Part shown: positions 57,271 through 63,204 of the stretch, in pieces
Layout: each line of letters opens with the position of its first letter
Numbering within the stretch: the stretch's first letter is position 1
Assembly (NCBI GenBank): GCA_003054655.1
Contig: QAYZ01000015.1
Coordinates: 496,001 to 560,000, forward strand
Origin: Spartobacteria bacterium LR76
GTDB lineage: Bacteria > Verrucomicrobiota > Verrucomicrobiia > Chthoniobacterales > Terrimicrobiaceae
Reading direction: 5' to 3'
DNA length: 64,000 bases
The notes under the pieces: model-generated
Seen by the model: only the letters and a program-made list of their open reading frames with translations
What the model was told of the DNA's origin: nothing
The model's database searches: none
Translations under genes and position numbers: made by a program

Positions 57271-58521
57271 TTACCCGCGATGAGCCAGAACGCCAGACTC
57301 ATAGGCTTTCACCGTCTGCATCCACTCGCCATCGGCGGGCTTGTCCTGGCGGCGGCAAAACTCCTCCCAAACCAGACCCCAGGGCAGCGACTTGCTCTCC
57401 TCGAGGAGGGCCAGGCGGGTGGTGAGATCGTTTTCGTTCTCCGCCGCCTGCAGCCGCCCCTGCGGGCGGAGCAGCCCAATGAGGAGGGCTTTCTGCGTAT
57501 TGCGGGTGCCAATGATCCAGGCCGCCACGCGGTTGATGCTGGCGTCGAAAAAGTCGAGGCCGATATGCACGCGGTCGAGCGCATTGCACGCCGCCACCTC
57601 CTCGAGGATCGCCCTGGTGGGATCATCGAGCGAGACCACATGGTCGCTATCCCACCGCACGCCGCGGCTGACGTGCAGCAACAGGCTGGGCACAAATAGC
57701 AGGCAGGAGGAAATCTTGTCCGCTACAGACTCGGTCGGGTGGAAGTGCCCGGCATCGAGGCAGAGCGTCAATCCGCGCCGCGCCGCATAGCCGAGGTAAA
57801 ACTCATGCGATCCCACCGTGTAGGATTCAAAGCCGATGCCGAAGAGCTTGCTCTCGACCGCATCGATATTCCATGCCGATTTCGAGCGGTCCTGGAAAAC
57901 CTCGTCGAGCGATTCCATCAGCCGCTCGCGCGGCGCCAGGCGGTCGGCCGGGGTATCCTTGTAGCCATCCGGTATCCAGACATTGGTCACGACGGGATTC
58001 TTCAACTGCTCGCCGATGGCGGCTCCGATCTCCCGGCTCGCGATGCAATGCTCGATCCAGAATTTCCGGATTGCCGGATCGCGGTGCGACAGGGTGAATC
58101 CCTCGCTCGCGAGCGGATGAGCATAGCAGGTGGGATTGAAGTCGATACCGAAACCGCGCCCCTGCGCCCAGTCGACCCAGCTTTGGAAGTGCTCGATGGT
58201 GAGGGCGTTGCGGTCGACCCTGCGCGACTGGAAGTCCGCATAGCACGCATGGAGGTTCAGCCGCAGCTTTCCCGGGATCAGGGCCGCCGCCGTGTCGAGG
58301 TCGGCGCGGAGTTCGTCGATGTTCCGGGCGCGACCGGGATAGTTCCCCGTGGCCTGGCAGCCTCCGCCGCCGAGCGAAGGGTCCTGCTCCTCGAATCCCC
58401 TCACGTCATCGCCCTGCCAGCACTGGAGCGAGACGGGCGTGGCGGCGAGGCGGTCGAGAGCGGACTCGGTGTCCACCCCGGCCTTGTGAAAGATTTCCCT
58501 GGCGATTGAATAGTGTGACAT
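57271..58521 (-). CDS. rhaA: L-rhamnose isomerase
   Basis: Converts L-rhamnose to L-rhamnulose. The 416-residue protein matches the E. coli-type enzyme throughout: [72 protein letters not shown]-like residues ([20 protein letters not shown]), [36 protein letters not shown] and [20 protein letters not shown], which contain the metal ligands. Fourth gene of the minus operon; 3 bases after the preceding stop. No rhaB or rhaD adjacent. The GH78-like rhamnosidase nearby supports rhamnose as substrate, although this enzyme class also accepts D-allose. Confidence 0.96.
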
Positions 58522-58524
58522 GAC

Positions 58525-59439
58525 TTAGCTTTGAAAAGTTTCCTTCAGCGCGCGCAGCGACTCGCGCAGTTGCGTACCCAGTTCCGGATCGGAGTAGTCG
58601 CGCCCGATCTTCGGCCCGCCGATCTCGAGGTAGCCGATGACGTGCTCGACCGGCCAGCGCGCGGCGTTGGCCTCCACGATCTCCCGGACCTGCGCGAGAT
58701 CGACGATCCCCCGGCGGCGCTCCTCGGGCGAAAAACCAAAGGTGCTGTTGAAGATCGCATCGGTGTTCTTGAAATGAAACTCCGCCATCCAGTCGATCGA
58801 GTATTCAAACAGCTCAAGGTTTCCGTGAATGACCTTCCGGTCGCGGTCGGCGATGCCATGGCTGATGTCGCCGCAAAGGTACACCGGCACCGTGGTGGCC
58901 CGGTTCTCCTGGTGATAGGCCGCCGCCGCCGTCATCATCGCCCGGATCTCGTCCGGCGTGGAGGGCGGCTCGGCCAGGCACGACATGGGTTCCAACGTGA
59001 TCGCCTTCAGCCCGAGGGCATGGGCGCGGTGCATGAGCCCGCAGAGGTTGCGATGGAAACACTCCAGCCCCGCGGCCTTGGAGTCGAGCCGGTCGCGATA
59101 AACCGCCCCGGGGTTCCACCCGCAGTAGTCCACCCCCAGCCGCGCTGCCACCTCCAGCAGCCGTTCGCAGCCGGCCCGCGCGGCTTTCTCCATGTAGGGA
59201 TCGTTGTAAAAAAATCCACCCAGTTCGCGATGGGAAGTAAAGACGCTCTTGAGGATCAGGTCGCGCTGGCGCGCCTCCTCTTTCAGCGCCTCGAACCACT
59301 CCGGGTCGAGCGAGTAAATCTCAAAGAACGAGCCGACCTGCACATAGCGCACGCCCTCCTCCGCGAGCAGGTCAAACAGCCACGGAAAGCTGTAGCGTGT
59401 TTCAATAGGGTCACTCTTCAATCCTAGGTCCAGTTTCAT
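58525..59439 (-). CDS. Sugar phosphate isomerase/epimerase family protein (TIM barrel)
   Basis: A 304-residue xylose-isomerase-like TIM barrel. The divalent metal site of this family is traceable: Glu in KAITLEPMSCLAE, Asp in YLCGDISHG, His in EFHFKNTD and Glu in IGYLEIGGPK, in the usual order. The N-terminus starts LDLGLKSDPIETRYSFPWLF. Members include ketose 3-epimerases and sugar isomerases; the exact reaction is not inferable. Its start overlaps the preceding dehydrogenase stop (ATGA), showing tight coupling in the operon. Confidence 0.88.
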   Translation of the reverse strand: MKLDLGLKSDPIETRYSFPWLFDLLAEEGVRYVQVGSFFEIYSLDPEWFEALKEEARQRDLILKSVFTSHRELGGFFYNDPYMEKAARAGCERLLEVAARLGVDYCGWNPGAVYRDRLDSKAAGLECFHRNLCGLMHRAHALGLKAITLEPMSCLAEPPSTPDEIRAMMTAAAAYHQENRATTVPVYLCGDISHGIADRDRKVIHGNLELFEYSIDWMAEFHFKNTDAIFNSTFGFSPEERRRGIVDLAQVREIVEANAARWPVEHVIGYLEIGGPKIGRDYSDPELGTQLRESLRALKETFQS

Positions 59440-60497
59440 TGGTTCACCTCCGGGGTAATGTCAAAAATCACTTTGTTGTGGAACCCGCGGCCCTGCGCGA
59501 GTTCGTCGAAAATACGGGGACCGTCCTCCAGCGGCAGACGGTCGGTAATGAGCGGCTCGACGATCAGTTGGCGGTCGAGGAACTTCAGGACGGTACTCCA
59601 GTCGTCGCGGCCGATGGGAGACACCTTGCTGTTCCACGTACCGAGGATCGTGAGTTCCTTGCGCAGGATGTCGGAGAAATCCTTTTCCCCGATGCGAAAC
59701 TCGCCCGCGATGTTGCCCATGAAAAGCACCTCGCCAAACGCCCCGGCGACTTTCACCGCCTGGAGAAAGGTCTTGGGCAGTCCGCAGGCTTCGACGCTGC
59801 GAGCCACTCCAGCCCCGTTCGTCGCAGCCTGGATGGCCTCCACGGCATCGGTCTCCACCGCATTGATCGGGAGGAATCCCATCTTCTCCGCGATACCGAG
59901 CTTGCGCTCATCGATATCGACCACGAACACGCGCGAGCAGCCATGGATGCGCAGCCACTGCGCCGCCATGTTGCCGATCGGCCCGGCGCCGAAGACCACC
60001 GCGTCGTCGCCCGCCTGGCAGTGCATGCGCCGGATGCCATGCAGCGCCACCGCCGCTGGCTCCGTCATCGAGGCGTGCAGGAGATTGACCTCGTCGGGCA
60101 CGGGGAAAAGATTCCACTCCGGGATTTCGAGATACTCGGAGAACGCCCCGTCGCGGCGCGAACCGTAGTAATCGTATTTCCTCGCCTGCGCGTAATCACC
60201 CGTCTGGCAGGCCGGATCAGACTCCGCTTCCAGCGGGAGAAGAGGGAATACTGCGACTCGCGCCCCCTTGGCAAAGCGCCCGCCCTCCGCGGGCCGCTCG
60301 ATCACGCCGCTGAATTCATGCCCCATCACCAGCGGATAGTGATAGGCCTTGCCCCGGAATCCCCGGCCGATGTCGCTGCCGCAAATACCGCAGGCCGCGA
60401 CGCGCACGAGGGCGCAGTTGGACTGCGGACCCGGACCCACCGGGAAATCGGTGCGGAACACCAGCCTGCCGTCTGCTTCGAGTACGAGAGCTTTCAT
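59436..60497 (-). CDS. Zinc-type dehydrogenase related to galactitol-1-phosphate 5-dehydrogenase (GatD-like)
   Basis: A 353-residue medium-chain dehydrogenase. Catalytic zinc ligands are in place: Cys in ACGICGSDIG, His-Glu in MGHEFSG and Glu in MTEPAAVALHG; the cofactor loop is VVFGAGPIGNMAAQWLR. KYDYYGSRRDGAFSEYLEIP matches GatD closely. The structural zinc lobe, however, keeps only one of the four Cys of GatD (PLLPLEAESDPACQTGDYAQ), so this enzyme probably lacks the structural zinc. I use the ATG at 60497. Likely oxidises a polyol or deoxy-sugar derivative of the pathway. Confidence 0.9.
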   Translation of the reverse strand: MKALVLEADGRLVFRTDFPVGPGPQSNCALVRVAACGICGSDIGRGFRGKAYHYPLVMGHEFSGVIERPAEGGRFAKGARVAVFPLLPLEAESDPACQTGDYAQARKYDYYGSRRDGAFSEYLEIPEWNLFPVPDEVNLLHASMTEPAAVALHGIRRMHCQAGDDAVVFGAGPIGNMAAQWLRIHGCSRVFVVDIDERKLGIAEKMGFLPINAVETDAVEAIQAATNGAGVARSVEACGLPKTFLQAVKVAGAFGEVLFMGNIAGEFRIGEKDFSDILRKELTILGTWNSKVSPIGRDDWSTVLKFLDRQLIVEPLITDRLPLEDGPRIFDELAQGRGFHNKVIFDITPEVNQ

Positions 60498-60505
60498 AAA
60501 AACGA

Positions 60506-61609
60506 TCAATCCCAGTGCACGATCACCTTGAGGCTGTCGGCGTCGGCCGCCCGCTCCACCGCCTCGCGCAGCTTTGTCGCGGGGAAGCGCTCGGTGTCGT
60601 TGGTCATCCGGTCGAGGAGCGGCAGCCCGCCCTGGCTGAGAAACTGATGCGCCAGCCGGATGCCGTGCATGCTCGATCCATGCGTCGCTTGATAGCACTG
60701 CAGCTTGTAGTGAATGTCGTTGTTCAGGTCGACCTGATGAAGGATGGGCGGCTTTCCGCCGGCGTTCTTCACCCCGGCATGACCGTCCATCACCGTACCG
60801 TGCCCCATGAGCTTCGTCGCGAGTTCGTAGGCGGCCTGGACCGGCGCGTTGACCATGACGAAATGCGGCTCATTGAAGGGCAGGCACTCGCGCCGGACAT
60901 TCTCGATCACTGCGTCATCCCACCTGATCCCCACCACGCGGCTGTCGCCAAAATCCCGCAGCACGCGCTGCAGGCGCTCCTCGCCGCGGTTGACCAGGAT
61001 GACCTTGCGCGCACCCATGCGCTGCACGCTCTGCAGAGCATACGCGCCCTGCGAACCCGCGCCGATGAGAACGACCACGCGGTTCTCGATACAGTTGTTC
61101 ACCCGCGTCAGCCCTTCCAGCGAGCACGCCAGCGGTTCAAGCTGGCAGGCGTGGTCGGGATTGAATCCCGCCGGGAACTTCATGATCGGCCCGAGCTCCA
61201 CGAACCACTGCGGCAGCACGGCATAGCGCCGCGCGAACCCGGGAAACTCATGCCCCGTCGCCTGGGTGTTGGGGCAGCTCGTCCAGTCGCCGGTGCCCTC
61301 GTCCCCGCAGTAGATGCAGGTACGGTCGCCGCACGGGATGTCGCACCCGAGGGCGATCAGGTCGCCCTCAGCAAACTTCGTCACCCCAGCGCCGATGGCA
61401 TCCACCACCCCGCTCATTTCATGCAGCACGATGGCCGGCCATTTTTTGATCCGGGGCAGCCCCGAGCGATAAATGATCACGTCGGACTGACAAATGGATG
61501 TGCGCAGGGTCCGCACTCGGATCTCGCCGGGTCCAGGCTCGGGCAGCGCCTCTTCCACGGCTTCGAACTCTCCACCCGGGCGATTGAGGTAATAAACGAG
61601 GTTTTTCAA
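60506..61609 (-). CDS. Zinc-type medium-chain dehydrogenase
   Basis: First gene of the sugar operon, 367 residues from the TTG at 61609. No ATG is available near the start; the TTG at 61642 in the same frame would put the coding region across the operator repeats, so 61609 (reading LKNLVYYLNRPGG) is preferred. Catalytic residues lie in SICQSDVI and VLHEMSG; the structural zinc Cys are complete (DIPCGDRTCIYCGDEGTGDW, then SCP). Cofactor loop VVLIGAGSQGAYALQSVQRM. It differs clearly from the GatD-like neighbour, so the operon encodes two distinct oxidations. Confidence 0.85.
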   Translation of the reverse strand: MKNLVYYLNRPGGEFEAVEEALPEPGPGEIRVRTLRTSICQSDVIIYRSGLPRIKKWPAIVLHEMSGVVDAIGAGVTKFAEGDLIALGCDIPCGDRTCIYCGDEGTGDWTSCPNTQATGHEFPGFARRYAVLPQWFVELGPIMKFPAGFNPDHACQLEPLACSLEGLTRVNNCIENRVVVLIGAGSQGAYALQSVQRMGARKVILVNRGEERLQRVLRDFGDSRVVGIRWDDAVIENVRRECLPFNEPHFVMVNAPVQAAYELATKLMGHGTVMDGHAGVKNAGGKPPILHQVDLNNDIHYKLQCYQATHGSSMHGIRLAHQFLSQGGLPLLDRMTNDTERFPATKLREAVERAADADSLKVIVHWD

Positions 61610-61616
61610 GGAAAAA

Positions 61617-61686
61617 GGATCGATTAATGATTGATTTAGCAACCTATCGGCCTTAAATCAATCATATATCAATCACTTTTCAATCA
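61617..61686. promoter_or_regulatory. Divergent operator array: ATCAATCA repeats at 11-base period
   Basis: Direct copies ATCAATCA at 61657-61664, ATCAATCA at 61668-61675 and TTCAATCA at 61679-61686 start exactly 11 bases apart, that is, on one face of the helix. On the other side inverted copies TGATTGAT (61628-61635) and the weaker GGATCGAT (61617-61624) are also 11 bases apart. The array fills the gap between the divergent dehydrogenase and epimerase genes; the DeoR-type regulator encoded at 62440 is the natural candidate to bind it. Confidence 0.8.
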
Positions 61687-61689
61687 TTT

Positions 61690-62382
61690 ATGCACTCTCG
61701 CCGTATTCAAATCGCCCCTTCGATGATGTGCGCCGACTTTCTCCATCTGGAGGAGGAGGTCCGCTTTCTGGAGTCTCACGGCGTAGACTGGATGCACGTC
61801 GACATCATGGACGGCCACTACGTCCCAAACTTCACCCTCGGCATTGACTACTGCCAGGCGCTGAGCCGCGCGTGCCGCATGCCTTTCGACGTGCACCTCA
61901 TGGTGGAGCACCCGGAGGCGCACGTGGAGGGCTTCGCCAGCCTCCCAGGAGCCCGTCTGACCTTTCATCCCGAGACCGTCCGGCAGCCGATCCGCCTCAT
62001 CGAGCGGATCCGCGAACTCGGCGCGTCGCCCGGCCTCGCGCTGGACCCCTCGCATACCGTCGACCAGTTCCGCCATCTCTTTCCGCTCGTGGACCAGGTC
62101 CTCGTCATGACGGTGAATCCGGGCTACGCCGGTCAAAAGCTCCAGCCGCATTGCCTCGACAAGATCGCCGAGCTGCGCGCCCTCCTCGATGCCCAGGGGC
62201 TCAAGGCGGAGATCGAGGTGGACGGTAACGTGAGCTGGGATAACATCCCGCGCATGATCGATGCCGGGGCCGACATCCTCGTCGTCGGCACCTCGTCGCT
62301 CTTTCAGAAGGGACTCTCCCGCGAGGACGCCTTCACCAGGCTCGCCCAACTCGTGCAGCCGGATCTCAGCGCGGCGAATTGA
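61690..62382 (+). CDS. Ribulose-phosphate 3-epimerase family protein
   Basis: A 230-residue TIM-barrel epimerase. The family residues are present: Ser in IAPSMMCADF, His and catalytic Asp in HVDIMDGHYVPNFTLG, His in DVHLMVEHPEAH, second catalytic Asp in IEVDGNVSWDNIP, and the phosphate site ADILVVGTSSLF. Within a deoxy-sugar locus it is more likely a pathway-specific epimerase (for example of the allulose-6-phosphate type) than the housekeeping Rpe. It starts 3 bases after the operator array and is followed by the regulator after 57 bases. Confidence 0.9.
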   Translation: MHSRRIQIAPSMMCADFLHLEEEVRFLESHGVDWMHVDIMDGHYVPNFTLGIDYCQALSRACRMPFDVHLMVEHPEAHVEGFASLPGARLTFHPETVRQPIRLIERIRELGASPGLALDPSHTVDQFRHLFPLVDQVLVMTVNPGYAGQKLQPHCLDKIAELRALLDAQGLKAEIEVDGNVSWDNIPRMIDAGADILVVGTSSLFQKGLSREDAFTRLAQLVQPDLSAAN

Positions 62383-62439: not shown

Positions 62440-63204
62440 ATGAAACGCTCGGTGCGCCAACGGGAAATTCTGAGACTCCTCCAGGATCGCGAGGAGATCA
62501 GCGTCGAGGAGGCGTGCGAGAGCTTCCAGATTTCCCAGGCGACCGCCCGCCGGGACTTCGCCACTCTGGCTGAGGAAGGCCGCGTGGAGAAAACCTGGGG
62601 CGGCGTGCGCAGCGCCGATCCGCACGCGAATCCCATGCTGCCCAGCGGCCTGCGCGAAAATCTCAACTCCAGCGAGAAACACCGCATCGGCGCACGCGCC
62701 GCGGAGATGTGCCGCGATGGCGACATCGTCTTCGTCGATGGCGGCACCACGACCTCGCAGATGGCCCGCTGGCTGGCCGCCCGCCCGGTGCGGGTGGTGA
62801 CCAACTCCCTTCTCATCGCCCACGAGATCGACCGTCAGCGCACGGATGCGCAGGGCGCGGAGGTGTTTCTCACCGGTGGCTATCTCTACCCCGGCTCCGG
62901 ATTGCTGGTCGGTCCCGAGACAGTGGAAAGCGTTCGCCGCTATCGAGCCGTCACCGCCTTTCTCTCCGTCGGCGGCATCACGGAGGAGGGCTTCGCCAAC
63001 AACCACCACCTCGTCGTCGAGGTCGAGCGGGCCATGATTTCACGTGCCTCGCGGGTCGTCCTGCTGGCAGACCATTCCAAATTTGGTCGGCGCGAACTCG
63101 TCTCCGAATGCTCGTGGGACGAGGTCGACGTCGTCGTCACCGACCGCCCGCCGGACGAGACGTTTCGCAAACTGCTGACCGATCGCGTGGTGGTCGCGGA
63201 GTAA
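62440..63204 (+). CDS. DeoR/GlpR family transcriptional regulator
   Basis: Sugar-phosphate-responsive repressor. The 254-residue protein has the N-terminal DeoR helix-turn-helix (RQREILRLLQDREEISVEEA, then FQISQATARRDFATLAEEGR) and the C-terminal sensor domain with IVFVDGGTTTSQMARWLAAR, FLTGGYLYPGSGLLVGPE, the EGFANNHHLVVEVERAM region and LLADHSKFGRRELVSEC. Regulators of this class bind phased direct repeats, matching the array at 61617-61686, and respond to a phosphorylated intermediate. Co-directional with the epimerase gene. Confidence 0.95.
   Translation: MKRSVRQREILRLLQDREEISVEEACESFQISQATARRDFATLAEEGRVEKTWGGVRSADPHANPMLPSGLRENLNSSEKHRIGARAAEMCRDGDIVFVDGGTTTSQMARWLAARPVRVVTNSLLIAHEIDRQRTDAQGAEVFLTGGYLYPGSGLLVGPETVESVRRYRAVTAFLSVGGITEEGFANNHHLVVEVERAMISRASRVVLLADHSKFGRRELVSECSWDEVDVVVTDRPPDETFRKLLTDRVVVAE

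Follow-up and report, generated by a model that had tools for sequence, protein, structure and literature searches.

What controls the two divergent sugar gene units of Spartobacteria bacterium LR76, whose start codons face each other across a short gap filled with copies of the word TCAATCA? In the 64-kb stretch of DNA analyzed here (the window), the gap is 80 bp long (61610 to 61689; 30% GC), running from the TTG start codon of a zinc-type alcohol dehydrogenase gene (60506 to 61609, minus strand; PF08240) to the ATG of a ribulose-phosphate 3-epimerase family gene (Rpe or allulose-6-P epimerase-like; 61690 to 62382, plus strand; TIGR01163, 225.5 bits with a cutoff of 212.6; PF00834). These are the first genes of the left and right units, respectively. 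We predict that the array of words in this gap (61617 to 61686) is very probably the operator of a DeoR-family repressor encoded behind the epimerase (62440 to 63204, plus strand). The prediction draws on computed features of the DNA, namely, sequence, spacing, uniqueness, conservation, regulator co-occurrence, and start codons.

The left unit continues with a second zinc-type dehydrogenase that resembles galactitol-1-P 5-dehydrogenase in its profile matches (59436 to 60497), a xylose-isomerase-like TIM barrel protein (58525 to 59439; PF01261), and the L-rhamnose isomerase RhaA (57271 to 58521; TIGR01748, 609 bits with a cutoff of 585), all on the minus strand. No kinase or aldolase (rhamnulokinase or rhamnulose-P aldolase) was recognized among the operon genes examined. 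For this reason, we refrain from naming L-rhamnose as the substrate, which may be another compound. Pfam searches of flanking open reading frames in the relatives (longest frames, several of them probably on the wrong strand) mostly returned nothing and did not identify the sugar. A bacterial alpha-L-rhamnosidase C-terminal domain protein is encoded convergently with the regulator and adjoins the rhaA operon in locus L038 (11236 to 13782; from 63235 on the minus strand in the window). The first gene of the left unit had been proposed to start at the TTG at 61609 instead of at 61642, and comparison with homologues supports this: 33 of 42 have a start codon at exactly the 61609 position (30 ATG, 2 GTG, and 1 TTG, the last in L039). 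The whole array therefore lies outside the coding sequence.

The array consists of two arms in opposite orientations. The right arm contains three exact TCAATCA half-sites on the plus strand (61658 to 61664, 61669 to 61675, and 61680 to 61686); with the preceding base included, exact (A/T)TCAATCA words begin at 61657, 61668, and 61679, in the 11-base steps that the initial annotation described. That annotation also listed two inverted copies with the same period. The inner copy of the left arm is indeed exact (TGATTGA at 61628 to 61634 on the minus strand; eight-base word, 61628 to 61635). The outer copy (GGATCGAT; half-site GGATCGA at 61617 to 61623, minus strand) sits 11 bp from its neighbor, as described, but is degenerate, matching (A/T)TCAATCA at 6 of 8 positions and TCRATCA, the consensus of the relatives, at 6 of 7; exact copies occupy the same slot in loci L044 and L059. 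The period proposed for the whole array holds inside each arm, where copies are 11 bp apart, but the two arms do not fall into a common 11-bp register. The inner left copy is 30, 41, and 52 bp from the three right copies. With 10.5 bp per turn, these distances equal 2.86, 3.90, and 4.95 turns, so the copies are all on approximately the same side of the helix without following one 11-bp ruler. The last half-site stops 3 bp before the epimerase ATG (61680 to 61690) and no Shine-Dalgarno sequence is evident, which suggests that the epimerase transcript has a very short leader or none. A scan of the 80-bp gap for promoter and terminator consensus sequences, including sigma-70-like promoters, found nothing.

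The array stands out by its clustering and spacing rather than by the frequency of the single word. WTCAATCA occurs 196 times in the 4.75-Mb genome, and the window holds 5 single words where 3.1 are expected, so the word is not enriched in the window overall. The exact tandem TCAATCAN4TCAATCA, in contrast to these scattered single words, is found in this array only, as two overlapping pairs, and the random scatter that would have spoken against an operator is not what the genome scan for 11-base pairs returned. When one mismatch was allowed, TCRATCAN4TCRATCA matched 12 places genome-wide, 3 of them in the array; in the relaxed scans (one mismatch or facing pairs), the places were scattered and the sole cluster was the array at 61617 to 61686. 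Neither four exact copies nor an 11-bp pair ever arose when the gap was shuffled 20,000 times with its dinucleotide composition preserved.

The word and its spacing are also kept in homologous loci. When named genomes were scanned with an alignment of the dehydrogenase, 43 loci emerged (some records being identical to genomes of our first search, designated G), among them records from Verrucomicrobiota, Planctomycetota, spirochaetes, and Bacteroidetes; those with the same word in the same place were mostly from other Verrucomicrobiota. All seven other examined loci with the same divergent dehydrogenase-epimerase layout contained one or more exact words between the two genes. Pooled without the window and compared with 500 shuffle sets, these seven loci contained 18 exact TCRATCA words (1.28 expected; shuffle maximum, 6), with four same-strand spacings of 11 bp and two, three, and three facing spacings of 21, 32, and 43 bp, respectively (0.0 expected for each class). 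No shuffle set matched these spacing counts. The full lattice is present in L083, with starts at -11, 0, +21, and +32, and L067 (1305 to 1362) carries a perfect 34-bp palindrome across the divergent gap (TTATGATTGACTTATGATCATAAGTCAATCATAA), with a self-symmetric word at its center. The outer left copy overlaps the dehydrogenase ATG in L044 and L059, and the center of the window array is displaced by 2 bp from the lattice of the relatives. The lattice is tight in the close clade only, since the words are 9 bp apart in L047 and the exact word is mostly lost in more distant loci in which DeoR is divergent from the TIM barrel gene. The conserved geometry (two 11-bp half-sites per arm, with arms facing at 21 bp) could conceivably reflect a defined oligomer of the DeoR family that spans the two divergent start codons along one face of the helix, so that the operator of this clade would reach the start codons and leaders would be very short or absent; we offer this more specific reading as a tentative one.

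The candidate binding protein has an N-terminal DeoR-type helix-turn-helix (HTH) domain (PF08220; 60.0 bits, cutoff of 21) and a C-terminal DeoRC sensor domain (PF00455; 154.8 bits, cutoff of 31.8). All NCBIfam equivalog models of named DeoR subfamilies (GlpR, UlaR, AgaR, SrlR, and others) scored far below their cutoffs, the best being GlpR_Halo (165 of 300). In the first search, the nearest orthologues were found in genomes G013, G018, and G090 (54 to 57% identity). The regulator is patchily distributed, because two genomes of the same genus (G001 and G002) lack a close orthologue, their best matches being about 30% identical.

To relate the array to this protein, loci were classified by the identity of their DeoR to that of the window, and the density of the exact word was measured upstream of operon genes. 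Where DeoR was at least 50% identical, the density was 12.0 per kb upstream, compared with 0.138 per kb elsewhere in the same loci. The upstream density was 1.85 per kb for DeoR proteins of 36 to 50% identity and 0.37 per kb in loci in which DeoR was not found. The trend departs from strict monotonicity, because a small set of three loci, with DeoR proteins below 36% identity, had 3.82 per kb. In the rearranged locus L047, and more weakly in L085, DeoR is divergent from the TIM barrel gene and the words adjoin DeoR. Because word density tracks DeoR identity and the words adjoin DeoR in these two loci, the comparison points to the neighboring DeoR protein, inferred from co-occurrence in relatives, as the binder. 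We consider it improbable that some other regulator, encoded elsewhere, binds the array and that the DeoR gene is a mere neighbor. The genome does encode at least two other DeoR homologues (29 to 31% identity), and L059 has the array with no DeoR found on its 7.9-kb contig; however, an unlinked regulator would fit poorly with a motif density that falls to near background where DeoR was not found, with words beside DeoR in rearranged operons, and with an exact 11-bp pair that recurs nowhere else in the genome.

Other DeoR neighborhoods contain the word as well. In the spirochaete metagenome-assembled genomes L049 and L068, TCAATCA precedes operon genes that neighbor a DeoR of 30 to 31% identity, L068 having one TCAATCA and one TGATTGA with starts 21 bp apart. 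In L037 (10990 to 14118), a DeoR of 44% identity and a RhaEW-like aldolase/dehydrogenase gene are transcribed divergently, and the gap between them includes the word TGATTGA; for G046, a DeoR of 44% identity that is divergent from a RhaEW-like gene was recorded.

With the neighboring DeoR protein as the presumed binder, a simple repression mechanism can be proposed. Each TCRATCA word would be a half-site for one HTH domain, and the spacing of about one turn (11 bp) would place neighboring subunits on the same face of the helix. The two oppositely oriented arms would face the two divergent units, and a bound oligomer would span the 80-bp gap from the dehydrogenase TTG to the epimerase ATG. It would block transcription of both units, including the gene of the repressor itself, which we infer to be cotranscribed with the epimerase gene. 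Release of the repressor would follow when a sugar or sugar phosphate derived from the substrate occupies the DeoRC domain. That one regulator could shut off both units, as the initial annotation proposed, is supported by the placement of the array between divergent starts, its conservation in homologous loci, and a word density that follows DeoR orthology. The same protein might instead act on the array as an activator or dual regulator, given that the DeoR family includes a few proteins named as activators and that the L-fucose operon activator model NF007720 gives a weak match. This is unlikely, however, as the array takes up the whole gap and stops so close to the epimerase ATG that a protein bound there would lie over the promoter or start; in Caldicellulosiruptor bescii, moreover, the sites of all 12 LacI- and DeoR-family regulators that were examined overlap promoters or 5' untranslated regions, which was read as repression (PMC8579813). 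Chance repetition without function in an AT-rich intergenic gap, to which the unenriched single word in the window might lend some credit, was rejected as virtually impossible, given the 0 of 20,000 composition-matched shuffles and the words and lattice kept in distant relatives, a conservation that by itself contradicts chance.

The predicted repressor operator has counterparts in known systems. Escherichia coli DeoR, GlpR, and UlaR are oligomeric repressors of sugar genes; they belong to the same family and have the same sensor domain as the 62440 to 63204 product, but their operators are mainly palindromes, in contrast to the 11-bp tandem array here. Bacillus subtilis IolR is a DeoR-family repressor of divergent iol units, reportedly acting at a tandem 11-mer repeat that contains YCAA. 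Both systems pair a DeoR-family protein with divergent units, although the IolR pathway is that of inositol. The nearest likeness is to the DeoR-family RhaR regulators, whose operators are imperfect direct repeats with a 10- to 11-bp periodicity, one of them confirmed by electrophoretic mobility shift assay (EMSA) (Rodionova et al. 2013, PMC3870299). In Chloroflexus aurantiacus, RhaR bound four tandem sites in EMSA, and L-rhamnulose released the protein (PMC3870299). As in those operators, a short word is repeated at 10 to 11 bp upstream of genes that adjoin the regulator, here a DeoR-family protein beside a sugar catabolic locus with rhamnose isomerase, and the repeat is kept in loci that have an orthologous regulator. 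Of the genes by which RhaR control is recognized (rhaA, rhaB, and an aldolase gene, either rhaD or rhaEW), rhaA is present, and the operon genes examined include no kinase or aldolase. The word differs (TCAATCA here and TCGAAA in C. aurantiacus), as does the layout, in which a pair of oppositely oriented arms lies between divergent units. By analogy, the array would be an operator of this direct-repeat kind, set apart by its word and its two arms. We therefore regard it as an ordinary but well-supported candidate for a kind of switch already known.

The array leaves the general picture of DeoR-type regulation unchanged. A literature search for the TCAATCA word together with DeoR gave no useful match, and we found no described operator for this Verrucomicrobiota DeoR clade, for which the array provides a concrete candidate operator word (TCRATCA at 11 bp). 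The word offers a route to predicting the regulon of the clade and to correcting start codons. With its exact spacing kept across several species, the array would also be a useful substrate for studying how a DeoR-family oligomer seats on tandem sites.
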